DNA from: Branchiostoma floridae
Taxonomy: Eukaryota; Chordata; Leptocardii; Amphioxiformes; Branchiostomatidae
Direction of reading: 5' to 3'
NCBI RefSeq assembly: GCF_000003815.2
Contig: NC_049980.1
Coordinates: forward strand, 8,791,431-8,855,430
Length of the DNA stretch: 64,000 bases
Position numbers and translations under genes: made by a program. This document shows, piece after piece, positions 2,758 to 56,800 of this stretch. Each line of letters opens with the position of its first letter. Positions within the stretch are counted from its first letter, which is position 1. The notes below the pieces were generated by a model. That model had not been told where the DNA came from, searched no databases, and saw nothing but the letters and a program-made list of their open reading frames with translations.

Positions 2758-2938
2758 AATACATTTACAAAACGGGGGCCCGGCCGGGCTGTTTTAGGAA
2801 GCGAAAAATAATATACCTAGAATTAAAGACAAAACATGTCCACGACTCTCCTAGGTTTTGTGAATTTTTGTGTATTTCTTTATCATATTCATCATTCCCG
2901 AAAGCTGCCCGGTCGGGCCCCGGTTTGGAAATGTGACC
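2758..2938. mobile_element. Family A element, copy 2
   Basis: GGGGGCCCGGCCGGGC on the left is matched by an inverted CCCGGTCGGGCCCCGG on the right, followed by TTTGGAAATGTGACC. The middle is AT-rich as in the other copies. Confidence 0.75.
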
Positions 2939-4024
2939 TAGGTATTAATGGTTGCCATTCATATATGCACACTCTGGTTTTAGTCCATTGTCGACGTCCC
3001 AAACAAGAACTTTCCTTCCCTTTGTCTTTGAACCTTGGGTAATGATGTCTGTAGTGGTAAGGATTCTAGGAAGCTAATATATGTCCCATATACGACTTCC
3101 ATATTCTACTTGTTACGTATAAACTCTAAGCACATGTCATTGAAATAATGAATTAATAAATTCTCACAACGTTGAAATAATGAAAATAATAAATTCTCAC
3201 AACGTAAATGTTTATCATCTTTTCATTCTTGACATTTTCTTTCCTATAAGGCTAAACCGGTCTTCTTTTCTTCAACTCTTTTGGTGTATCCAGAGAATTT
3301 CAAATACAAGATCCAGTTTGCATGGTCTAAATATATCTGAACAAAGGTGAAGGTCTATAGGGAGAGATTTCTATGGCTTATCCTTTGACCTGACCTCAGA
3401 TAATTTCTTCACGAGCTAGACAGAATCGTTACCGCAATCCTCGGCCAGGACACAGGGATCGATCGATGTCATTCATTTTATCCTTCATCCGACCTGGATT
3501 TTCGATATTGCTATTCTAGACTATTAGTAAGTATTATATTTCGGTGGAGGCCATAGACATGGTCACGTTACATTTCGATGATTAAAAGTTTGATATGCAG
3601 GGTATGAACCGTATGATAAGGACGGCCCCATTGGTTACATGAATACTTGCCAGGTGTTGTAAAAGTAAACGGTTCATTTTTTTTGTAGCAAAATGCTTCA
3701 TTTCATTTCATTTTTGAATTGAACTTTATACACCGATAATTTTGGACCAAAGCAGAATTTTGGAAAACATATTCAAGTAATTTCCATTTCGATAAACGTT
3801 GATGTTAACCCCCCCCCCCCCCATTTGAAAACTGAAATTTTTCACTATGCAGAATTTAAGTGTGATAAGGTGATACCACAACTTGAGCATATAAATCATG
3901 CTGGATGATAGAGCAAAGACTCCTCGACCACAAAATTAGGTCAAACCTTTTCTGTAAAATGGGTGCAACGAAATCAAAGCTAAATTTTTTTTTCAGGATT
4001 CGGCTCCTGTACTATTGACGTTAC
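2939..4024. other. Intergenic, AT-rich, nothing recognised
   Basis: No gene is visible. A short direct repeat of AATAAATTCTCACAACG occurs twice near 3155-3205, and a run of 14 C lies at about 3810-3824. Confidence 0.5.
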
Positions 4025-35488: not shown

Positions 35489-35517
35489 CTTTACATTTGT
35501 TTGCGTCTACATTCCAA

Positions 35518-35885
35518 GAAACAGATTCCTGTCCTTGAGAAACAGATCTCTAACTAAAATAGGTCCCTGACATTGAGAAACATATCTCTGACCTTGTGGA
35601 ACAGATCTCCGACCAAAACTGATCTCTAATCTCAGACCAGAATAGACCCTGATAAACAGATCTCTACCTTGAGAAATAGATCTCTGACTAAAACAGATCT
35701 CTGGCCTTGAGAAATAGATCTCTGACTAAAACAGATCTCTGGCCTTGAGAAATAGATCTCTGACTAAAACAGATCACTGGCCTTGAGAAATAGATCTCTG
35801 ACTAAAACAGATCTCTGGCCTTGAGAAACAGACCGTACCTCCGACCAAAATAGATCTCTAATTATCTCTGACCATATAGATCTTG
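35518..35885. repeat. Minisatellite of AGATCTCTGRCY units
   Basis: Direct repeats of about 46 bp built from two similar halves, GACTAAAACAGATCTCTGG and CCTTGAGAAATAGATCTCT, with the cleanest units at 35690-35830. It begins about 30 bp beyond the GPCR polyadenylation signal. Confidence 0.85.
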
Positions 35886-40199: not shown

Positions 40200-40310
40200 T
40201 GTACCAAGTAGGTGTGGCTGACCGCTACCAGACAAGGTAGGTGTCGCTGCCACACTGCAAGCAATCACTGTAATACTGATCAGACAAGGTAGGTGTCGCT
40301 GTGACACTTA
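40200..40310. repeat. Short direct repeats
   Basis: AGACAAGGTAGGTGTCGCTG occurs twice about 55 bp apart (near 40231 and 40283), with a related AAGTAGGTGTGGCTGACC just before. Confidence 0.7.
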
Positions 40311-40738
40311 CAATTTTAGTTAGCGGAAACTACACGAATATGAAAAAGTTTTCCTTCATGAACTGGTTGGAAAAAACTACATAACGTTACATAAAAACTG
40401 GACTTGACAATTTTCAAGAAGCATGTGCATCTACTGTACTGTGGTGGTTTGCTTTTTTCAAGCTGAAAACTTAATATTCTTGCTTAGTATTAGTATTAGC
40501 CCTTATCTTTACCCCAGTGTTTAAAAAAAAAATCAAAAACATTATTTTGCTGTTTTGGTCCTTATTTGTTCTAAAAAGATCTAAGAGCCAACAAACTGAA
40601 TTGGTATGAGAGTTGGACTTTAACCTAAATACAGTAGAATACAATATACTAGAAAGATAAGCTTATTTATCTGTTTGACTTTCCTGTTTTTGCCTCCAAC
40701 TCTTAACTCTATCCTTTTCTATTGCCAACTTCATGTCA

Positions 40739-40888
40739 ACTTTACAATGATTTGGTAATTGTCCATGACTACAGCCATTAGTGGTTGTGCTATATTAACA
40801 GACACGCTGTTTTCAGATTCATCAGGTTCCTCCAGTGTGAGAAACTGGGAATCCAGTAGACCCGCCGGCATGAAGTGTCCAGTCCTCA
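40739..40888 (-). pseudogene. Tandem copy of the last gluconokinase exon end
   Basis: This segment repeats 40914-41063 at a 175-bp offset, with only about ten mismatches in about 150 bp. Read on the minus strand it keeps the frame without interruption from GHFMPAGLLDSQF through the C-terminal helix, then ends in its own TGA rather than the TAA of the gene. Its C-terminal residues differ slightly (IIVKLT against IIVELI). It has no upstream half and no clear 3' splice site, so it is probably an untranslated duplicate lying in the 3' flank or 3' UTR. Confidence 0.8.
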
Positions 40889-40907
40889 ACTCTACTCTTA
40901 AAACACT

Positions 40908-43012
40908 TTATATCAACTCCACAATGATTTGGTAAATGTCCATTACTACAGCCATCAATGGTTGTGCTATCTCAACAGACACGCTGTTTTCAGATTCATC
41001 AGGTTCCTCCAGTGTGAGAAACTGGGAGTCCAGTAGACCCGCCGGCATGAAGTGTCCAGTCCTGCTCTCCAGCCGACTCCTGACCACATCTTTACTCCCT
41101 TTCAGATATACAAAAAGGACATTTGGTCTTGGAGAGTCAGAGTGTTGATGAGGTATACGTGGAGACACACTTGAAGTGCTTGGATCCTGAGGAACTTGAC
41201 CAGTTGTCAAGACTTCTCTGTAAGACTTCTTAAGAGCAGAACAGGCGAGAACACCAGATCTCCCTTCAGATGCCCAACTGTAAAGGAAAAGGGCTTTGCT
41301 GTAGACTTGTCCTAGTGACTTACGACATAATGTTCCAGCAATATTACCAAAAAAAGGCAACAGTAACAAGGAGATAGAACTGTACCAAGGATAGCTTTCT
41401 GAGTTAGAATTGAGCTCAACACATAACATCTGCTTGGACCAGCCATTGATTATGTAAATCAATCCTAGCCAAGTCAGTCAGCCTGCTGTGAAGTCTGGTA
41501 GGACAGTGGCTAGGTTTAAACAGTTATGCATTTTCCAAGTCGACTTCGAGTTGACTCCACTGGAATTTACAGCGGAGCCAACTCAGGACTGTTAAACAGC
41601 AATTTTCCTAGGGTTGAAATGAGTAACCAATTAATCTAATCATGACTCTAGTTGCGAGGGAGAACGGCTTTTATGATTACTAGTATACTGACTATAATGT
41701 ATGCAGAAGGTATTTACACTATTCTTAGCAGCTGCAAGCTAGCAGTCTTTTATATAATACCTACCTGCAAATTAAAGTGTGCAGTTTTCTCAGCCATGGA
41801 TATCTGTCCTGGAATGAGGAAATTAGAAGTAAATGATAAAAGGATGAACAAAGTCGTCTACTATCATACAATTCATAACTTGTGCATCTTTGTAATGTGT
41901 GGGTTAACATCCTAAAATATCTAAACGGGGGTGTTTCTCACTCCTTACAATATTGTTCTCGACATGGTACCATGCACATGCCATTATCATACGTGTTTGA
42001 GTACACCTGGAGTCAATCAAAACTCCCTGTTAAGAGTAAAGTTGATTCCGAATTCCGAATATAGTAAGCACAAGATATTATGGACCCTCCTTCCCACATC
42101 CATGCCGTGTTCCGTACCTGGTTATAACCGGGATAGCGTATTCCCCCAAAGTAGCAACTTTGCGCACTTGTAGCTCACAAACCCCGGAAGTTAGGGACTT
42201 AGGCCTTGTTCAGCCGCCCGGGGTCACTTTCCGAGGTCAGCAGCCAACCCTGGCATTAATAGCATTTTATAGGGCTGAAACTCTGGCAGTTTAAGGGCAG
42301 ATATCATTAACGCTGGTTCACCTTTATCCGCGGGGTAACCTTTATTCGTTGTTATTCCAAGCAGGGTATTTAGGTACATCAAGGGAATAGGCGGTACTTC
42401 TAAACTGCAAAAATACTGAAAATATTGCAATTTGAAACCGATGTCTGTTGATGTGATGTCCCCAAATAACCCTGTTTTTAAAAGCAACGGATATAGGTTA
42501 CCAAACGGATAAAGGCGAACTAGCGTTATCAATCTTATGTAACACAACAACATTGTCTAACCTCATCTGTAAGTGGCACTCCAGCAGACATCTTCTGTTT
42601 GTTGACATCTGGGTGGAACAAATCAGCATCTGCAAACTCCCAGGACAGCTTACGGGGCAACAAAGATGTGAGTTTAAAATCATCACAACAATCAGTTAAT
42701 CCATCATAGAATGGCAAGTGACAACTGTTGTTTTGACCAGAGCGGAAGATGACTTTAAGCCTGTAAATATAATCAAGGTTACATATACCTTTTCTGCAAG
42801 CGCCTGTCCAACAGATGTTCTGTAATACAAAATAGAGGAAGTGGTCATAAAGTGCATAAGTGATAATAAAGTCCTCTGAAGTTCAACCATCGTTCGAAGC
42901 AGGTTGGTTCAATATTTCGAAAAACATTTCCCTTGCTTTATGCAGGAGATCTGTAACGAACGAATGCCACTCACTTCCCACACCCACAAACGCCCATCAA
43001 CACGACGATCAT
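40908..43012 (-). CDS. IDNK: Gluconokinase
   Basis: Five coding exons on the minus strand: 43012-42975, 42819-42789, 42648-42562, 41808-41765 and 41277-40908. All have GT/AG borders and compatible phases, giving 189 aa, the usual size for the family (human about 187). The enzyme phosphorylates D-gluconate to 6-phosphogluconate with ATP, feeding the pentose phosphate pathway. The P-loop reads GVCGCGKTS at residues 7-15, split by the first intron. The DADLFHP motif of the substrate pocket follows at 30-36, then KMSAGVPLTDEDRYPWL. The LACSALKKSYR motif starts at 77, then VYLKGS and GHFMP. Exons 2 (31 bp) and 4 (44 bp) are very short and were placed from protein motifs and splice signals. The start fits the expected short N-terminus. 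No polyadenylation signal was recognised. Confidence 0.92.
42307..42530. mobile_element. Family L element in gluconokinase intron 3
   Basis: TTAACGCTGGTTCACC then TTTATCCGCGGGGTAACC on the left, with ACGGATATAGGTTACCAAAC then GGCGAACTAGCGTT inverted on the right. It ends about 30 bp from the donor of exon 3 (42562). Confidence 0.75.
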
Positions 43013-43578
43013 CGCTTCAACAGCTCTCCTGTCAGTTCATCATGATCGTGTGATAGCCAACAGCTGATCGATCATGTGGGTTATTCAACTTCCGGGTTTC
43101 CCCACTCTTCTAAAGCATGCTGGGATTAATCGTGACGTCACCATTCGCGTTTGGGATGATGACACACATACTGGCAGACGAAACACGTACGGTAGAAAAT
43201 GTCTTAAACTGGCCGTCTAGAGAAATTTCCAAGACATCTGTATAGCATCGAAGATTCATATAAGTCAGGTTGAAGTGTCTGCACTGCTTTAAGACCATTT
43301 GCTGGTAAGTAATTGTGGGAAAACCTTGCGTTGTCAGGGATTCTAAGCGAGGGGGAGGGGGGCAACAAGTTACACAAACGTGGATTTTCATATGATGTAA
43401 TATGTTTCGATCGAGTATTTGGTGTCCAAAATCAAAGGTCTTGGATGTCTGTGTGAAATAAATGTTACTGTCAGTTAATGAGTTTAAACAGGATTGAACA
43501 AGGAAGTCGCATCATAATTTTATTTTTGATCGCTGTATGTCGGCGTCCCTTCCGTAAACTGGGAAGGTCAAGTATGAG

Positions 43579-45125
43579 CAAGGAGCTTTTATCAGTAGGA
43601 GAGAGTACGGATTAGTTTCCATTGTTCGTATGTTCGTAGCGGGCGACAAAATTTTATTAACACCAACGTGTCAAAAACCCGCATCTGCATACATTTCACC
43701 CACGCAAGCTTTTGTTTTCCATTTGTTTTGTGGTCATTTTCAAGGTGTGGCGGCCTGGGGATACAAACATTGTGTGTAGCGATCTGATTTTTGCGATTTT
43801 GTTGACGATGTTGAACAGAAGAGTAACTTCGGAATACATACAGCGGCGGCAATATTCTCTCTGACTAAGGGTGACATTTCAAAGTCATACGGCGACCGGA
43901 CAGCGCCGCCGCTCGGGTACGGGCTAAGCCTAAAGGCCGCGTAGCACAGTGGTAGTGTATTCGGCCCGTGACCGAGAGGTCGCCGGTTCGAATCCGCCTG
44001 CCGTGTTGCCGGTCTTGTGCCCTTGGGAAAGGCACTTTACACGTCTTTCCTCACTTTACTCAAGTGAAAAATGAGTCGTCCCTCGGATAGGACATTAAAT
44101 GGAGGTCCCGTGTATGGGGAGAGCCATACCCCATGCACGTTAAAGAACCCCCATACGTGCGATGGTGCGGTATGTGGACCAAAAACTTACAGTCTTGTGT
44201 ACGTCTTACGTACCGTGCTTGCAGCCCTCAGCCTAATGAGGTTAAGCACGTATAAAGAAGAAGAAGAAGAAGAAGAAGAAGAAGGCAAAATTGTCTGAGT
44301 CAAATTCTACGAAAAAAAACTGGTAATATTCCTACAATTAATGATGACTGTAAAAAACCTGACTCAATGATCACAGGTACCAAGTTTTTTTTAAGTATGC
44401 AACAGATATATTTCATAAATCGATACAAATACAAAGTTCAAATGCCTGGAGAACTCAAGACAAAAAAAGAAAACCCGATCGTAACGAAAACCATGAAAAC
44501 TATGCTCTCCCGCCTTACATTTGTACCTTCACCTCATTCCAGGCACGCTGTATCCTCTAAAAACACGGGCGGCTCGACAAAAATGAGCAAGGTTCGACCA
44601 ACAGTGAACACGCCATTTTACCGAGCACATCATCAACAGTTACAAAAAAATATCAGCTACTCTAAATGAAGAAAAACGTCATATTTTTTTAGTAGCCATC
44701 TGAAAATACATGTGACAATTCATAATTCTATCGCAAGAAAACAGACCTCGATCCGCGAAAATAGGCCTAAACTGGCCCATGTTTGTTGTACGGCGAAGAG
44801 AAACATATCAAACTGTCCGCCATTTTGCCCTCTACCCCAAGATGACGTAGTCACATACCTGCCGAGTTTTCCAAATAAGGGAATCGTCGGAAACCTGACC
44901 CACTTCGCCTCTTGCCGATCGGGCTTCGGGCTGGCTCGAGGGCTATGACGTCATGGTGTGGCTCATTAGCATAGAAACCGCGCCAACCAGCGCTACGAAC
45001 ATCTTATCAAAGGAACACCGTGACGGGCAGTAAACAAAGCGGCGCTGCGGGATTTAAGGGGGCGAAACAAAGGCGCACTGCGGCCGGGTAACTCCATACT
45101 CTCTCCTACTGATAAAAGCTCCTTG
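43579..45125. mobile_element. 1.55-kb DNA transposon with target-site duplication
   Basis: The terminal inverted repeats begin CAAGGAGCTTTTATCAGTAG and run about 30 bp, with at most one mismatch (43579-43610 against 45095-45125). GTATGAG flanks both sides directly (43572-43578 and 45126-45132), a 7-bp target duplication. No transposase is recognisable. The open frames at 43592 (-) and 44367 (+) match nothing I know. A SINE is nested inside. The element starts about 570 bp upstream of the gluconokinase start codon. Confidence 0.75.
43931..44290 (+). mobile_element. tRNA-derived SINE, copy 2 (nested)
   Basis: The best preserved SINE here. The head has a polymerase III A box (TAGCACAGTGG) and B box (GGTTCGAATCC). 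The body has CTTGGGAAAGGCACTTTACA, a CCTCACTTTACTCAAGTG-type stretch and CCCCATGCACGTTAAAGAAC. The 3' end is an (AAG)n tail at 44258-44285. The tRNA head cannot fold as a canonical tRNA over its 3' part. It sits inside the transposon at 43579-45125, so it is the younger insertion. Confidence 0.8.
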
Positions 45126-45890
45126 GTATGAGATTTGTGTACAACTCAATATAGATTAAGCTTCAATTTACTTTCAAATATCATAGCCTATGAAATATGG
45201 TGCATTTAAGTCTTTCTTAATAGTTACATTTAAGCTGACATTTCACGTGTAATTTGGTACGGGACTCAAATCCGAGTACATTGTATTGTCTTTTCAAGTT
45301 CAAAAGCAAAGAGCTCTCTTATTTCATCTGTCATCAAAATTGCCATTTCCATTTATATGCAGTACTAGTATTCGGAAGGCCTCTATGGTCAGGTTTTCGA
45401 GTTTTGGAGACTATTTATCTAGTAAAAAGTGCTATTTTTAGAGTGTGCAAATCGCAAGTTAGATTGGCAATGAATAGACATAGCTCTTTTTATAGGGATT
45501 AATTTGAAAAACAACAACAAGAAGACAAGACATTCACCAGATACAGTCTATACATGTACTTCAATCGACAGCACCCCTTTTACTTGGAGGCAAATTTGCT
45601 TGGAATTGTGTAAAGGAGAAATAAGGCTATGGTAGGTCGCAATGTACTATTTGACCACATGGCTGCTATGCCCCCTACTGATCATTATGAAAACTGCAGC
45701 TAAAATGACAACTTACTTTGGGCCTAACTGATGGATGTGGCCATTTTTTCGAAGTCCAGTGATGATTATTGCCATCTGATAAAAGGTCAGAATACATGCC
45801 TCTTTATCTGTTACACATAAGCAAATTCATTACCTATTCAAACTAGTGCATATAATGGAAATCTTTCTATGTCACCTCAGCCCATCCTTG
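45126..45890. other. Intergenic between gluconokinase and HMG-CoA reductase
   Basis: AT-rich with no exon recognised. It separates the divergently oriented genes, and their promoters are about 3 kb apart. Confidence 0.4.
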
Positions 45891-45896
45891 CCTCTG

Positions 45897-46117
45897 ATTG
45901 GTCAGTTTAGAACCTGATGATTTGGAATTGCCAATCACAGGCAAGAAGAGGGATCAGGTGGGGGTGTGACTCTGAGCTTCAATTCAGGTTAGCTATCTAT
46001 AAAAGAACCCGGTTAGGAGTTTGAGATAGGATTTAGGCTTCTAAGTTCTACTAGTCCAAGCCCCCTTGTCATATCCAGAAAATTTAGTAGAGCACTCAAA
46101 GGAGACTGTTAAATATG
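45897..46117 (+). promoter_or_regulatory. Probable HMG-CoA reductase promoter and first exon
   Basis: An inverted CCAAT box (ATTGG, 45897-45901) and a direct one (45931-45935) are followed by AGGTGGGGGTGTGA (45956-45969). Its complement, TCACACCCCCACCT, resembles a sterol regulatory element. A TATA box TATAAAAG follows at 45998-46005. A transcript starting near 46030 would have a first exon ending AAATATG at 46117, just before a GTATGT donor. In vertebrates this gene is controlled by SREBP with NF-Y at neighbouring CCAAT boxes and has an intron in its 5' UTR. The assignment here is inference from motif layout. Confidence 0.5.
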
Positions 46118-46619
46118 GTATGTGTTCTTATTCCTTGTCTTAGTACTTTTTTATGGCTTTAGAATTGTAGTTTTCTGCAATAAGAAGTTGTCAAATGAGA
46201 AATTTTGGCTTTTCTAGGTCAAATTATATTCATCACCGGTAAAAGGATGATGCAATGGGGGTAGAGTAGACTAGACTTTCATGAAGCCGTATATGTTTTA
46301 CAAAAGATTTGGAAGGTCTCTAGATTTGTCTTAAAGTTACCAGTACACCATCAAGGTTTAAAATTCATATTTGGGAACAGGTTCACCAGTGCATCTGACC
46401 AAGAAATTCAGGTGCAACCAAAAAATGTGGCTGCACAATCTAATTATTATAATTTGAAATTAATCTGTCCCTCTTCATAGCTAGAATCTGAAATTCTATG
46501 GCTAACTTTAAACTAGTGATATAAGAAGGCCATGAAGTAGAAAACAAGAAAGTAAGGTCTTGCTGTTGTAGTATGTCGAGTCTATATATAATCAAAGATT
46601 CCGGCAAAAAAAAAAGCAG

Positions 46620-46730
46620 TTGGTCCCCAGTATGTGTAAGACCAGGAGGTTATATCACGCGTGCAGCGGGGTATCAAGCCCGTCCAATCTCCTCTTCGTC
46701 TTGATATAACCTCCTTGGTAAGACTGTGGT
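46620..46730. repeat. Imperfect inverted repeat in 5' intron
   Basis: ACCAGGAGGTTATATCACG faces CTTGATATAACCTCCTTGG about 60 bp further on, forming a possible short foldback element. Confidence 0.55.
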
Positions 46731-46973
46731 TATAAGCCGTGAGTAAGTGAATATGTGTTTTTAGATGGATTGTAAATTCCCTTTCATTGATCCCAACTGC
46801 TATAAAAAGGATTTGAGATTAAAGCTTGTTTATCAATGATAGGATTAGGTTTTGATATTTTGTCATCATATTCTATAGGTTTGATGCATACTATGTGTTC
46901 TTTTGTCCTGAGTGATGTGGTCAGGCACTGGAATTGCAGTTATAGATGCCATTTATATAGCCTGGTATCCAGC

Positions 46974-47309
46974 NNNNNNNNNNNNNNNNNNNNNNNNNNN
47001 NNNNNNNNNNNNNNNNNNNNNNNNNNNNNNNNNNNNNNNNNNNNNNNNNNNNNNNNNNNNNNNNNNNNNNNNNNNNNNNNNNNNNNNNNNNNNNNNNNNN
47101 NNNNNNNNNNNNNNNNNNNNNNNNNNNNNNNNNNNNNNNNNNNNNNNNNNNNNNNNNNNNNNNNNNNNNNNNNNNNNNNNNNNNNNNNNNNNNNNNNNNN
47201 NNNNNNNNNNNNNNNNNNNNNNNNNNNNNNNNNNNNNNNNNNNNNNNNNNNNNNNNNNNNNNNNNNNNNNNNNNNNNNNNNNNNNNNNNNNNNNNNNNNN
47301 NNNNNNNNN
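46974..47309. other. Assembly gap (336 N)
   Basis: A 336-N run. The open frames called across it are artefacts. Confidence 1.
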
Positions 47310-47575
47310 AAAAAAAGGAGAAAAAAAGGGAAAGGGGAGAGGAGAAAAAAGAGGAAAAGGAAAGAGGAAGGGAAAAAAGAGGGGAAAGGGGGAGAGGGGA
47401 AGAAAAGGAGGGAGGGGGGAAAAAGGGGGAAAAAAAGGGAAAAGGAAGGAAAGAGGAGAAGAAAGAGGAAAGAGAAAAAAAAAAAAGAAAAGGGGGGAAA
47501 GAGAAAAAAAAAAAGAGGGGGAAAAAAAAAAAAAAGAGCAAAAAAAAAAAAAGAAAAAAAAAAAACAAAAAAACG
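47310..47575. repeat. Purine (AG) low-complexity tract
   Basis: Almost exclusively A and G for 265 bp. It probably caused the neighbouring gap. Confidence 0.95.
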
Positions 47576-47852
47576 GCTGGATACCAGGCTACCATTTATA
47601 CTGTTACTTCCGTAAAATATGGGGGCAGTTTTACTGTCTAAATAGAAAAGAGAAAGCATATTGTCTCCAGAAACTGTTCATTTATTAGATATGCAACCAT
47701 GAAAAGTGTGTGTTTTACATTTGGAAGTCAATGGAACAGCCTACTAGTAATTGTTGCTTGAGACCTTAACTTTACGTTATACCGCACATTAAGAAGACTT
47801 CAGGGATTCATGCTTTCAAATCTCCTTGTCGCAGGTGCTGAGTAACCTTGCC

Positions 47853-50800
47853 ATGCTGACGGGGCTGTTTAAGGCGTACGGGCGCTTCTGCGTGTCGCAC
47901 CCCTGGGAGGTGATCGTGGGGACCATCACGGCCACGATATGTCTGCTGTCCATGAACATGATCACCAACAGCGACCGTGTCTGCGGCTGGAACTACATCT
48001 GTAATGTGGACGAGGTGAGAGATAAGTTGGTCTTGTGGTTTCTGTGCATATTTGCTTACGGTCTCATTCCTGTATTACTACACAGGGCTCGAAATACTGG
48101 GTGCATGGGCACCCAAGTGCACCCAAAATTGGAGCTGTGCGCCCAATTATTTTGTATGGGTGCACAGGGTGCACCCAAATATTTTCTTGGGTTTATGTAT
48201 GTAAGATATCAAAGTATACTACATCATATTCTTGACATCTAAGTGTTAGAGATAAATAAAGATGTCTGTCATGGTACTTGTTAAAGAATTTTATAGCATT
48301 TAACTAAAATTGTTGTTAGGTTTTTCTGACATTTTATTGAAATTTCAGTGGTGATTTTTTGGGTGCACCCAATTTTTTAAGCTGGGTGCACCAGTGCACC
48401 TAATCCCAAAAATGAATTTCGAGCCCTGCTACAAAGAATCCGTGCCCAACAAATTTGGTGCCCTCAAACAAAATTTTTTCCAACAGCAATGTTTCAATGT
48501 CTGAATCAGGTATTCGATTTTTCGACCGTGGCACACTCGGCGTGCGCAGTCCCGACTATGTTCGAATTATTCTATGGAAGCCTGTGTGAATAAACTTCGA
48601 AGCTTGTGTGATACTGTACGTTTTATCATCAACCGGTCGGGAACACCCACATCGAATGTTAGTACGTCCCAGGTATGACATAATGCCATTTATTAACCAC
48701 AAGGACTTTCAAGACAAAGTTGACATTTTAATTTTGTGTTCCCTCTTAGGATATCAAAAGCAGTGACGTGATCATCATGAGCCTGACCAGGTGTATTGCT
48801 GTCATCTACATCTATATGCAGTTCCGCAACCTGAGAAAGTTTGGTTCCAAGTACATCCTCGGTAAGTTTGTTTCTGTCATCACCAAATATCTGTACCCTT
48901 GCACGTAAGGTTCATACATGTGTGTGATTGATTTAGATTCAGAAAGTGATTTGTACTGTAGCTGCGACAATGATTATTAAAGATTATGAACCATTCAAGC
49001 CAGTGTTCTAGCCAGCCAGAAATTTCTTTCCGTCCCCTGGATTTTGAATGGAAATCCTGTCGAAGGCGCAACGATCATATGGGGCTCCGGGGGTATGCTC
49101 CGCTGAAAAATGTTGAAATCTAGACCCTCTGAAATTGCTGTTTCCTTTATTTTGAGGGGCAAATTTTGCTGGTAGACTCAGCTTGGTTCTATCGATATCT
49201 TTATATCCCGTCCTTTATATTTTTGTCCGTCACAGAGGATGGAATGGGGAAAATTTGTGTCCATCCCCAGCAGCAAAATTCCGTCAAATGAGGGGTGTTG
49301 TCTAGAACACTGATTCAAGCCTACCATGGTGGTTAGCTTTTGTACAGTCAGCCATGCGGCCTTGCCCTTCAGTATTTGGGTTTTTTCCAAGACACACACG
49401 TACAAACCACAGTACAAACCACAGGCCGCTCAGTACTGTGTAAACACTACTCAATCAGGAGGTTTGTATGTTTGTACTCCAGTCAATGATTGATGGGGAC
49501 GTGTAGCATACGTGTTTGATCTTACAGCCAGAGGTCCTGGGTTCAAATCCTGTCGTGATACCAATCTTGTGCTCTTTGGAATAGGCACTTAACATGTAAA
49601 AATAAGTACCTGACTTCAGCCGATTAATGATGATGATGATGATGATGACTGGTTTATTCAACAAACAAGAACAATGACAAGTACGGGCCTCATGCCATGG
49701 CAGCCCAAAGGCTGAATTCACAGGCTTGTTAAAAATCAAAATCCTATGCGATACAAATCAACAAGCTGGATTAAAATCAAAATCTGATATACTATTTGCA
49801 TGTTATTTATTGGTCACCATGTAGTAGTAAATAGGCTCATTGTGAATGGAGCAGTGTAACTTACTGTATAAAGGGAGGTAAAAGGTAAATTGGGAGGAGA
49901 GGTTTGGCTCCACCTCCCAATACCATGCCCTAGACACAGTGGATAGCAACCCACTGTCCCTATTGCCTTGAAAAGGCTATGGGACTACCTTTACCTTAAC
50001 CTACGGCCGTGTGTTGGACGATCCCTCGATCTCGGAAGTTTTAGCATGTGCAGTTCTAGGATGTGGGACCACCCAAGGACGACTGGATGCTGTAGCCGGA
50101 CAACACATTTCTCAAAGCAAATATTTTAATTCTCTATGAATTAAACAATAATAGTAGTGTAATTTTGCTGCAGGGGGAAGGCACAAAATTTAGGGAATAA
50201 ATGACAGTTATGTTGCAAAGACTAAAGTTGATTATTTAAAGTTAACAGTATTTGGTTGTTGTGGCTAGCCCCAAAACACATTTTTGTCATCTGATTTAGA
50301 CCCTGGGACCACATGTAAAATTTATCATTTAAGTGGAGACTTTTGGATATGTTTATTGCTTTAATTTTTGGGGGGAAAATATGCAGTACACTAATCGAAA
50401 TTTGGGACAGAAAAATTAGGACATTATGAGAGTACTGATGAGAGTACTGAGGGAGGATGAATAAAAGAAAAACATTCTTCTTTCCATCAACCTGGCAACT
50501 AATAATGCAGAGGCATAGACAAATGATATTATGCCTTTTATCATAAGAGTTTTTTAGGCCACACCAATTTAATTTCTTGGTTCACGGATTCGCTCGCTCC
50601 AATTTTTTGGGAAAAAAAAATAAGCGTTATAAAATAAGCATTAAAATAAACGTTAATCAGCCTCATAACCCAAATATACTGGGTACCTACTGGCTGCAAA
50701 TTTACCCGATATTATTATTATTATTAACCAAAGATTGACCACTCTGTTCTTCCCTCTCTCTCCCCAGGCATTGCTGGAGTGTTCACCATCTTCTCCAGTT

Positions 50801-53800
50801 TTGTGTGATTGACCGCTCTTGTTCTTCCCTCTCTCCCCAGGCATTGCTGGAGTGTTCACCATCTTCTCCAGTTTTGTGTGATTGACCACTCTGTTGTTTC
50901 CTCTCCCCAGGCATTGCTGGAGTGTTCACCATCTTCTCCAGTTTTGTGTGATTGACCACTCTGTTGTTTCCTCTCCCCAGGCATTGCTGGAGTGTTCACC
51001 ATCTTCTCCAGTTTTGTGTGATTGTGTAATGACCACTCTGTTGTTTCCTCTCCCCAGGCATTGCTGGAGTGTTCACCATCTTCTCCAGTTTTGTGTTCAG
51101 CAGTGCAGTCATCCACTTCCTGGACAAGGAGATCACGGGTCTGAACGAGGCCATGCCCTTCTTCCTGCTCCTGATCGACCTCTCCAAGGCCTCGGCCCTC
51201 GCCAAGTTCGCGCTCAGCTCGTCCAGCCAGCTGGAGGTGCGGGAGAACATCGCTCGCGGCATGGCCGTGCTCGGGCCCAACTTCACCTTGGACGCGCTGG
51301 TGGAGGTTCTTGTCATTGGAGTCGGCACATTGTCAGGTATGGAATGATATCAGATACCTAAACTCAGTTAGATTTTTTTCCTTAAGTATTAGAGAATGGA
51401 GTCTTTGCTATCAATGCCCTATTTGATAAATATAATAATTACATGCAACTTTGCACAGCAAATTGCTCACTACAGTGCTCAGTTTCCTTTTGATGATATA
51501 GGTCCTCGTGTACACATTTGACAGGCAATCGGTACGAACTTGGTAAATTCGGCGTTTTCTCTAACTCTGTGGTTAATTGTGACTGTTTAACTATTTCTTG
51601 ACCTAGTATAAAATCAACTGTTAGAGTCTCACATCAATGTGGAGACTGTTAAAATGGCCCTTTGGGTGCCCTTTTATGGCTCCCTGGGACGGCCATCATA
51701 GTGCGTCTCTTGTGCATTTTTATTCCTGTCGCACTACGCTGTAGTGCACACTTACATAGCTGAATAATACTGCATAAGGTAGCCTGACTAAAATCGCACT
51801 CCTAGTACTAGTGCCTGGCCCTACAGGGGAGGGGGTCATTAACCCCAGCCAGTGAGAGATTTTGTAAACACAGGCTATGCTGCTGAATGAATAAGGATGT
51901 TTGATTGATGTTTGATTGACATATGCTGTTATATGTCAACCGTCCCCTGCAGGTGTGAGACAGCTGGAGATGATGTGCTGTTTCGGTTGCCTGTCAATCC
52001 TGGCCAACTACGTGGTGTTCATGACGCTCTTCCCAGCATGCCTCTCTCTTGTACTGGAAGTAAGTTCTTCTTTCAAAGGATTTTTTTGTCATGAGTATCA
52101 AAATTTAGTCCAGCTGAGTGTATACATTTGCAAAATGACATTCCTGTTTTTTTAACATAATATTAATCATTTTTCAAAAATGATAGCAATATAGAATGTT
52201 GTGTGCACAATGAGCAACATAAACCAGGAAACAACAATTTGCAATTTTCCCAACTAAATTGACATTACATGACAAATGGATCCCCATTTTAACTATGTTT
52301 TGCACTATAATATATTCTAGTTTGTAATGATAATAAACATAGGCTAAGAAACCATTCATTGTAGGCATTTTCTGGTTACTGTAATTACTAGAAATGGGAT
52401 GATGATACGTGTAAGTGTTAAACAGAAAGTTTTTGTTCCCCAGTTGTCCCAGGATCGGAGTAAGGGTCCGCCTGTGTGGCAGTTGAACCAGCTGGCTGAC
52501 AACATCCTGGATGAAGTGGAGGAACAAAAACCCAACCCTGTGGTACAGAGAGTCAAGCTCATCATGGTCAGTTTCTTTCAGTTTTTCTATCACTGTGTAT
52601 GTAGATGTACAAAGTTATTCTCTCTTACTGAAAACTGTACCTCAGGACCCAGTACCTAGTTTCTTTAAAAAGATGTTGCGAGGTCTCCTCCAGAATCACA
52701 GCAAGATATATAATAAGAGAAAATTTTATGATTACATCGTATATATTCAAACGCATATAATTGATATCTTCACATGTAGCTAACCGTTGTCTCACTGTCC
52801 TTATCATTGATGTTTATCAATTATGCAATCAATCATTTGTAGGCATCATCTCTTGATGATCTGCAGACATCTCTTTCAAAGAAGTTCTATGTAATAGTTA
52901 GATCCGGGAACTGCCTGGCTATGTGGATTTAGCACAGCTTTGCCATGTTGGCTTCCCGAGGGCATAGCCTGACTAAAATCACGCTCCTAGCGGCCTGCCC
53001 TACATTTGCCATCACCTAGGAGGAGAGGGGTCATTAACCCCAGCCAGTGAGAGATTGTATAAAGGCTATCCCAGGGTGATGACATCTCTTTCTAGGATGT
53101 ACAGTTCTATTTTCAGCACAGGACCTGTTGGCTCTGGTGACCCTTAGCCCTCTGTGAGTGTACATGTGGAAGACTTTCTTTATGTTGATCCTATACAACT
53201 AAAATAAACCATCTTGTCCCCCCTGTGCAGGCCCTTGGTCTGGCCCTGGTCCACGCCCACAGCTGGCTGGTTCCCTGTGAGAGGGACACGACCCTTCCCG
53301 GCTCCGACCAGCTGATGGGACTGATGGGGGCGGGCGTGGCCTCCGTACCGACCGTCCAGCAGAAGGTGGAACCCGACATGCCGCTCTGGCAGTTCTACCT
53401 CACCTCGTAAGTCACTCTGGCAGTTCTACCTCACCTCGTAAGCCACTCTGGCAGTTCTACCTCACCTCGTAAGTCACTCTGGCAGTTCTACCTCACCTCG
53501 TAAGTCACTCTGACAGTTCTACTTCACCTCGTAAGCCACTCTGGCAGTTCTACCTCACCTCGTAAGTCACTCTGGCAGTTCTACCTCACCTCGTAAGTCA
53601 CTCTGGCAGTTCTACCTCACCTCGTAAGTCACTCTGGCAGTTCTACCTCACCTCGTAAGTCACTCTGGCAGTTCTACCTCACCTCGTAAGTCACTCTGGC
53701 AGTTCTACCTCACCTCGTAAGTCACTCCAGCTCTTCAGTACCTCCATGAAAATGAAGGTTTTTACTCTGGCATGGATTGTGTCTGTGTGTTTATGTGTGT

Positions 53801-56800
53801 GTGGGTGCGTATCTGGCAGAATATCTATGGAGAACTTCTCGACAATAATGTTTGGTATGTGGATAGGTACGTGGATTGTTGACCTGACGGTTCTCCTAAT
53901 TTTGGGCCTCCTGGTGGCCAACCTTGGCACTGCAGCAAACCTTCTTTTCTGAAATCGAGAGAAATGGTTTATTGACATTGAAAACTTTCAAGCACAAAAT
54001 GGCAGAATTGTTATGACAAAAACAAACATTTACTGCACAAATTACAAATTACATGTCCTCGTTCAGGAGCCTTACACAGTAAGGTAAGGTGCTGTTTGCG
54101 AATTGAGCAGTTCTACATCTAAACTGAGAGGTTTGCGGTTGTTTTGTAGTGCATGTCTGGCAGAATACACGTTCATGCCTATTGGAATACGCGAGTGAAT
54201 GTTATTCCTGACATTTTGACTTTACAGGTGGCTGTCTATGAGCTATGACGAGATCCTAACCCTGGCCCTGGCCCTGATACTGTCTGTCAAGTACATCTTC
54301 TTCGAGAACAATGAGAACAGCATCTCCTCCCTCCCTGCCATGGAGAGGAGGAAGTCAGGGATGCAGGAATCCTCCAGGATGGAGGAGATGGAGAAGGAAG
54401 AGGAACAAGTCATCTCCATAGAGAGTACCACATGTCTATCCACTAGCACACAGACAGATCCTGATGGTGAGGTCTTGTTATGTCCTGCATTTCTAATCTC
54501 CAAGCAGATCGAACGATGCCATAAGATAGTATCAAAGCTTGCCAAGGAGTATAGCTGGCCAAAGGGAGTGAAACGGGCACTGGTTGCATACACACTCCTA
54601 GGCCAGCTTTTGATGCTATCTTATGATACCGTAGGATCTGCTTAGAGATTACTGCATTTCAGTGTGTCAAATGACTTTACTAGCCTGGGTGCCATCCTCT
54701 GTAGCAATCGCTGGCTTAATTTTTTTGCTTGCTGATATATGTTTACGCAGTGGTTACTATGCAAGATGGTACCCAGGCTTTGGCTTTTACAGTGCAGCAA
54801 CCTTTCTGCCAAAAAGCTGTTACTCAATCAACTGGATATGACTTTGGAAACGGTCAGATGTTTAAGGTAGTACATTTGTATCCACTATCTTACATCAGTG
54901 ACACTAAGGATATCTTGAAGAATATTTTCCAATCTGGAAGAATATCTTCAGATTCCAGATATCCTGTGTCACTGACAAAAGATAGTGGATACTATCTGAA
55001 ATGTTAAAATCATATCCAGTTGCTTAAATAATTGCTATTTGATGTATCTTATTACCTGGATGTCTACCTTCATCAAAACAACCTTTTGCTTTCAAAAATC
55101 TTAAGAATCTTATATAATTATCTAAATCTAATTGAAAGTAAATGCTTTGAAATTTTGCATTGTAAATGTATAGAAGTGTATTGTAAAGTTTGTATGTGTA
55201 ATTTTGTTAGATTTCCCCGAGCCAAAGACATCGTTTTTCCTGGGCGGATCTAATGTCACCTCCCCAGCTGATTCTGAAGAGGAGGAGGAGGATGATAATG
55301 ATGAGGAGAAGGAGGAAGATGACACACCCAAACCCCCCAGGTCTATCAAAGAGTGTGCAGAAATTCTCGACACCCAGGTAAGGATGTACCTGTGGTGCCA
55401 GAATTAACAGCGACAGCTTTTTGAGTTGACAACTTTTAGCTTATCTATTTAATATTGATCTTTTTGGGTGGTCTCTTCAGTTAACTTAGTAACTGATTTG
55501 CAGTCTAACTAGAGTAAACCCACTGGAAGCCTCATGGAAGCGCGGTGTGAAGACTAGCTGACTGCTATCTAACCCTGTGTCAATGACCCCAGCAGTAGTT
55601 GTATAATCAAATATCGGATACTTCTACTTATAGCCTGACTAGAATCGTGCTCCTAGCGGCTGTCCTTACAGTTGCCACCTCCTAGTAGGTCATTAACCCC
55701 AGCCAGCGAGAGATTGTGTAAACACAGGCTACTTCTACTTTGTGCCCTTCTGACTAGTTGTCAGGTTTACCTACCTAGTCCCTTGACCTCCTGGTCTTTG
55801 GGGGGACATGGTAGACTGTATACTTCTACTCTGGGCCTTCAGACTATTATAGATTATAGTTGTCAGGTTTAACCTCAGTATAAATAATCAGACCTGATTC
55901 TTTCTGTCCCCAGGGAGCGGAGACCCTGACAGATGAGGAAGTACGGCAGCTCGTTCGCAGTAAGCACATTCCCGGGTACAAGCTGGAGAGCAAGCTGGGC
56001 TCGGCTGAGCGGGGCGTGGCCGTCCGCAGGCAGATGCTGACGGAACAGTTGCACCGACAGGAGGCACTGGAGAAACTACCGTACACCAGCTATGACTACT
56101 CATTTGTAAGTACCAAACTACCCTACACCAGCTATGACTACTCATTTGTAAGTAGATGTATAATTGTTTGTTTAGAAACCAGTGCTTGAAATACCCACTT
56201 GCAAAGACAGCCTTGTTTTTCTCAGCACAACTTGATTTTAAACCCAGTTAGCACAGTGAGCAATGTAAAATTTGGAAATGCAATGCCGCTTTTACCCTAC
56301 AAGCTTAAACTTTTGTATTTATTTCTTAATAAGATAAAACATAAGTAGTTACATGTAACTGAAAGAGAAGATTGTGGCTAAGTAGCTGATTTGAAGAAAG
56401 TACATGTAATAACTTGGAAGTGGGGCAACCTGAAATGTTGATGGCACAACCTGGCTTTTGACTTGGGTTGCCACCTTGGCAACCTTGCCACCTGGGCAAC
56501 CTGGCTGAAAAAATTATTTTGGTACACTGCGGTAACAGGGTTTAGCACATAGCTCAGTGAACAGAAGGATCTTATATGTTATAAGATGTCTCAGAGACGT
56601 TTGCACATGTGTTCCACCTGATGACACATTCATGTCCCCACAGGTGACAGGTGCGTGCTGTGAGAACGTGATTGGCTACATGCCAGTACCGGTAGGCGTG
56701 GCCGGACCCTTGCTGCTGGACGGGCGGGAGTACCAGGTTCCCATGGCAACAACAGAAGGCTGTCTGGTCGCTAGCACCAACCGTGGGTGCAGAGCCATCA

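Follow-up and report, generated by a model that had tools for sequence, protein, structure and literature searches.

Are exon borders in amphioxus duplicated by a process of their own, or do ordinary tandem duplications happen to straddle them? The question is raised by a 64,000-nt stretch of the Branchiostoma floridae genome (contig NC_049980.1, positions 8,791,431 to 8,855,430, forward strand; hereafter the window), in which an initial annotation described four exon-edge tandem duplications, arrays A to D, and proposed a process that duplicates exon borders. Tandem Repeats Finder (TRF) and repeat finding confirmed all four in position. Arrays B, C and D lie at splice junctions of one plus-strand gene, that for HMG-CoA reductase (HMGCR), and array A lies in another gene on the minus strand; the pattern covers two neighbouring genes, with all three splice-junction arrays in HMGCR. 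We consider it likely that the arrays are ordinary local tandem duplications in exon-dense genes, where they are tolerated.

The units measured 177 bp (A), 70-77 bp (B), 31 bp (C) and 42 bp (D), which agreed with the annotated sizes except that 175 bp was corrected to 177 bp. The sides differed, as had been described, with one acceptor (B), two donors (C and D) and one coding end (A). The features of the HMGCR gene were as follows.

50733..51096, plus strand: array B, five units with spacings of 73, 70, 70 and 77 bp (TRF, repeat finding).
51058..51336, plus strand: sterol-sensing exon of HMGCR read from the fifth, outermost acceptor of array B (stop analysis, ungapped match to PDB 8djk_A); its end is at about 51336 (51337 in the stop analysis).
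53231..53406, plus strand: HMGCR exon ending LWQFYLTS, followed by the first of 11 donors (reading frame, PDB 8djk_A match).
53384..53727, plus strand: array C, 31 bp x 11.1, 11 units (TRF).
55914..56105, plus strand: HMGCR exon, followed by donor 1 of array D (reading frame, phmmer).
56073..56154, plus strand: array D, two 42-bp units with donors after 56105 and 56147 (TRF, reading frame).

Four of the seven HMGCR exon pieces scanned against Pfam gave Sterol-sensing and HMG-CoA_red matches, and the Pfam scan returned no match for the other three. The exons matched catalytic-domain structures in PDB, among them 2q1l and 1dq8 (human HMGCR), and the membrane-domain structure 8djk. Three copies of a dispersed repeat starting TAGCCTGACTA were also seen in the HMGCR introns, at window positions 51780, 52965 and 55631.

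The units of B, C and D each hold both exon and intron sequence (39 exonic and at least 31 intronic nt in B, 23 and 8 in C, 33 and 9 in D). Tandem repeats of this kind over intron-exon borders of amphioxus are called mirages, a name used in a globin paper (PMC3087553). Each B unit carries a candidate branch point, a pyrimidine tract, the sequence CCCCAG and the first 39 nt of the sterol-sensing exon, and this exonic part is identical in all five units. The candidate branch point is TTGAC-like, with ATGAC in unit 5, by comparison with the branch-point consensus. The donor of the C unit reads CTC/GTAAGT (the slash marking the exon edge), except in copies 2 and 5, which read CTC/GTAAGC, and these shared variants suggest that a block of units may have been duplicated within the array.

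To identify the productive copy of each array, we compared reading frames and homology. In array B the four upstream acceptors each led to a TGA after 13 residues and the fifth alone stayed open; the exon read from copy 5 matched 8djk_A without gaps. In array C every donor after the first, out of 11, follows at once on an in-frame TAA. When the exon was ended at donor 1 and its sequence continued with that of the following exon, the product matched 8djk_A with no gap at the junction, the gaps lying elsewhere. Both donors of array D were open and in frame, so that use of donor 2 would add 14 residues, and with both copies kept the phmmer alignment to HMGCR structures opened a 14-residue gap at the repeated stretch. 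At the level of predicted proteins, the copy touching the exon body was shown to be the one that yields the conserved product in B, C and D, with the original junction intact beside the exon body. In the two long arrays the outermost site is indeed the productive one, as annotated. This position is explained by the fact that a duplication straddling a border joins the exon body to exactly one copy. The productive copy is fixed by the geometry of the duplication, and the special selection that had been invoked to keep one junction is therefore unneeded.

These observations can be joined in a simple sequence of events. Slippage, repair or unequal exchange would produce a local duplication with a unit that by chance crosses an exon border. 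One outermost copy would stay attached to the exon body, so the original junction would survive and the gene would go on working; the arrays would be tolerated because this one intact junction remains. The remaining copies would become spare splice sites, giving a premature stop in B and C and a 14-residue insertion in D, which splicing would mostly ignore. Harmless arrays of this sort would then grow, shrink and decay as any minisatellite does.

Further border arrays were found when we searched the genome (513 Mb, 431 contigs, the window lying on contig C2) by gene family. The searches returned exon-level matches for kinesins (at least 134), SNF transporters (at least 103) and P450 (at least 119), and among the matches listed tandem partial-exon matches were evident by eye in one kinesin (L022) and one SNF gene (L037). 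The globin search gave 10 matches in which no tandem partial-exon pattern was seen, although such a match list is uninformative as a positive control for the known mirages. Kinesin clusters were then sampled by hits per cluster (18 of 44 clusters, 93 kb), a choice that a mirage can influence by raising the hit count, L022 being an example. We skipped a four-hit cluster on C11, and the last three regions were 3 of the 11 three-hit clusters, chosen for short span. The 18 regions held five border arrays, one of which (L038) was called by hand; these are listed below with the transporter case, which had been chosen for its duplicated-looking matches and was excluded from all rates.

L022, 296-710: kinesin, acceptor mirage, three copies.
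L026, 950-1456: kinesin, donor mirage, four copies.
L032, 2401-2526: kinesin, donor duplication of 66 bp.
L032, about 2842-3380: kinesin, older donor array, three to four decayed copies.
L038: kinesin, old donor case; the exonic tail scored 41 against the downstream intron, as against at most 34 for up to 400 random chunks.
L037, about 295-570: SNF transporter, donor-side duplication of 168 bp, in frame.

The L037 duplication contained no stop, and use of its donor 2 would insert 56 residues; 82 nt in a run were identical between the copies and the intron side had diverged. Copy identity ranged from 97% in array C to about 74-86% in L038 and L032, a range expected under continuing turnover. 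A 10-mer, GGTGTCGCTG, occurred on the intron side of the repeat unit of the L022 mirage (426, 577) and in a 28-bp pair at window 40229-40308, making 4 places in all on both strands of the loci and window scanned, L001 left out. This 28-bp pair (40229/40281, with a donor-like GTAGGT) was rejected as a further border case, as it lacks evident coding context.

Background repeat frequency was taken from 200 kb in 20 stretches of 10 kb, 19 of them random from the first 8.8 Mb of C2 and one arbitrary on C1. These stretches held 30 arrays (period at least 25, score at least 100), and minisatellites are called frequent here from this genome alone, not relative to another genome. The same stretches failed as a test bed for borders, since a codon classifier found 61 coding-like segments in them against 50 in reversed sequence (threshold 15). 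Their exon borders are untrustworthy, and they were therefore used as repeat background only. About 3 of the 60 flanks would pass the 95% null level of 14.2 by chance; L016 contributed two arrays and L018 one with exactly one flank above it (3 of 30), and in a further L018 array (1 of 30) both flanks exceeded it. Two of the random regions contained long arrays: head-to-head inverted 51-bp arrays of 14 and 19 copies with donor- and acceptor-like motifs (L012, 173-1943), and GC-rich arrays with 124- and 401-bp units (L016, 5080-7654). In the sampled kinesins we counted 172 borders in 80 kb of collapsed sequence, or about one coding border per 465 bp. On our reading, border arrays are frequent because minisatellites are frequent in the genome and coding borders are this dense in the sampled genes; frequent border overlap is expected in such exon-dense genes.

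An alternative is that duplication is aimed at borders, with transcribed junctions made into hotspots by pyrimidine tracts, stalled polymerase, R-loops or RNA-templated repair. The initial annotation had held that a lack of enrichment of tandem arrays at borders over random intron positions would count against its process. By base coverage of the 18 kinesin regions, borders lay below introns: 4 of 202 borders (2.0%) fell in a local tandem duplication, compared with 2.8% of intron bases and 1.3% of exon bases, the intron control being inflated because the extra copies of mirages, left in place, count as intron. With the hand-called L038 the number of borders was 5 of 202. Duplications behind the 4 of 202 were called automatically and exons were partly set by hand: exon ends came from family matches, codon score and a splice-site rule, and were hand-set near the arrays in L022, L026, L032 and L038.

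Collapsing each array to one unit gives a fair picture of the founding duplication, and the collapsed counts, which weigh against our reading, put border overlap 1.4- to 3.1-fold above expectation depending on the event set. For TRF arrays in the first 15 kinesin regions the overlap was 3 of 5 against 0.97 expected (P 0.047, or 0.060 on the condition that part of the unit lies outside exons), and for all 18 regions it was 3 of 6 against 1.1 (P 0.07). When events from gapped self-alignment were added, 4 of 9 events, or 5 with hand-called L038, overlapped borders against 2.07 expected (P 0.12 or 0.03). A narrower set gave 4 or 5 of 7 against 1.72 (P 0.06 or 0.009), the higher count again including L038; it omits two intronic events that the 9-event set contains, namely a 39-bp array in L038 that qualifies under the TRF criterion and a repeat of 119-bp offset in L035. 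A wider set gave 4 or 5 of 16 against 2.8 (P 0.30 or 0.12, on the same basis); it adds seven weaker self-matches whose copies are short for their spacing, none of which covers a border, and with them the excess fades. The unit of the older L032 array was set at 175, its shortest offset being 117.

In the window itself, 4 of 6 arrays overlapped borders against 0.25 expected (each array counted as one unit, about 40 coding borders assumed), with P about 2e-5; this value counts the gene end of A as a border and is post hoc, the window having been picked for the feature. The presence of all three arrays in one gene (P 0.002) also favours targeting and is likewise post hoc. On the other side, the events are few and one is hand-called, and the joints of B, C and D share 0-3 nt (three shared bases in C, two extra bases in D, none in B) with no motif common to the three arrays, as ordinary slippage or end-joining would leave them.

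The measures of border excess disagree. The base coverage largely shows the lack of enrichment that the annotation had named as refuting, and the collapsed test leaves at most a weak excess that depends on the event set (P 0.009 to 0.30). The true excess could reach 2- or 3-fold. A border-directed process is not established, and we regard border-targeted duplication as unlikely. The broader proposition that amphioxus exon-intron junctions are true tandem-duplication hotspots at about 2-3 times chance, with most long genes carrying junction arrays of varied age, seems to us improbable; if it were true, spare splice sites would always be at hand, as would material from which new introns could form. 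Were the border excess to hold across the whole genome, one could test directly how junction arrays arise by mutation and what part they play in intron gain. The counts also show that simple overlap counts mislead, and that the span of an array needs to be collapsed to one unit before enrichment is asked about.

A functional explanation would be that the HMGCR arrays are kept as decoys whose spare sites divert a share of the transcripts into nonsense-mediated decay, thereby adjusting how much of this rate-limiting enzyme is made. All spare sites of B and C lead to an early stop and would reduce the output of HMGCR when used, and the pyrimidine tract looks longer in the first B acceptor copy than in the productive one. 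However, kinesin and transporter genes, which have no dosage theme, carry arrays of the same build, and splicing is reported as normal in the published cases (PMC3087553). Regulation of HMGCR by the spare sites is speculation, and we consider retention for that purpose very unlikely.

That assembly inflated or created the repeat copies is hardly credible: there are assembly gaps in the window and beside an intronic array in L022, but the copies differ in substitutions and length, and PMC3902484 states that comparable PGBD5 repeats were confirmed by its authors' re-sequencing data.

With ordinary, tolerated local duplication as the preferred reading, the remaining elements of the window can be described. 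At window 50650-50727 lies a dispersed repeat, about 77 bp long and ATT-tailed, that ends a few bp before array B and may have set the left edge of that array; it occurs at no fewer than 39 other places in the genome at 85-88% identity (40 of 672 candidates scored). Among the same 40 scored matches the array B region was found full-length once, and no second haplotype, haplotig or second HMGCR copy was found.

The remaining array, A, sits at the end of a gluconokinase-like gene.

40728-41063, minus strand: array A, 177 bp x 1.9 (TRF).
40905..41063, minus strand: copy 1, the C-terminal coding end of the gluconokinase-like gene (...RTGHFMPAGLLDSQF...IIVELI stop; PDB gluconate kinase match, codon comparison).
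40728..40886, minus strand: copy 2, downstream of the stop codon, 93% identical to copy 1 (repeat finding, codon comparison).

The product matched a PDB gluconate kinase with E 6e-17, and Pfam gave no match for this open reading frame (ORF). The unit covers roughly the final 50 codons together with the stop and part of the 3' flank. It spans no exon-intron border, and array A is a gene-end duplication, not a mirage. Copy 2, presumably 3' untranslated region (UTR), has an open frame and its own stop, TGA. Over the 52 shared codons (stop included) the copies show 5 silent differences and 4 residue changes, too few for a verdict on constraint in copy 2.

Elsewhere in the window, an Rfam scan of 40000-61000 returned nothing beyond a tRNA-like match at 43935-44006 (Rfam tRNA, 35.8 bits), possibly a tRNA-derived short element. 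A minisatellite at 35517-35861 (TRF periods 17-113 bp) lies about 200 bp past the final GPCR ORF and may belong to its 3' UTR.

Comparable junction repeats have been described in human CBS. Its 31-bp variable number tandem repeat, c.1444_1467+7(16_21), has 16-21 units (PMC2630376). By its formal name the unit takes in 24 exonic and 7 intronic bases, close to the 23 and 8 of array C with its 11 copies, while the gene and lineage differ. We take the equal 31-bp unit as a coincidence. The human CBS repeat reportedly has effects on splicing. The CBS 844ins68 allele is a 68-bp duplication of the intron 7/exon 8 junction in which splicing strongly favours the more distal copy (PMC2630376). This distal-site preference is what array B would need, although 844ins68 is a single extra copy, polymorphic, and in another gene and lineage. 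Intron gain offers another parallel: in a potato gene an intron was gained through duplication across an intron-exon boundary (PMC4974935), and mirages have been proposed as an intron source (PMC3087553). There too a border duplication supplies the splice signals, but no new intron is evident here, and the arrays are possible raw material only.

The closest relatives are the mirages of amphioxus itself. PMC3087553 cites Adh3 and two further reports of amphioxus loci, gives the BflGb6 mirage 6 and 3 units on two haplotypes, and suggests regular splicing from Adh3 data and globin reverse transcription PCR; PMC3902484 adds a PGBD5 mirage and cites troponin C. By analogy, these published cases argue for near-normal splicing in HMGCR. 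The mirages of Adh3, the globins BflGb6 and BflGb9, TnC and PGBD5 share with our arrays short border-spanning repeats on either side of the exon, with splice signals in the copies and the original product retained; the published mirages also vary in length. The present arrays differ in that the genes are new (HMGCR, kinesins and an SNF transporter), that three lie in one gene, and that what is repeated in array A is a coding end with its 3' flank and no splice border. Among the titles listed from one open-licence library, no amphioxus case of border repeats concerned HMGCR, and a search aimed at this gene in amphioxus turned up one unrelated review. The suggestion in the initial annotation of a lineage trait is supported by these publications and by the further cases in this genome, and a little-followed amphioxus observation is extended to several more genes, with a rough frequency of 4 of 202 borders in 18 kinesin regions. 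The HMGCR arrays are further examples of a known amphioxus phenomenon, not a new one.

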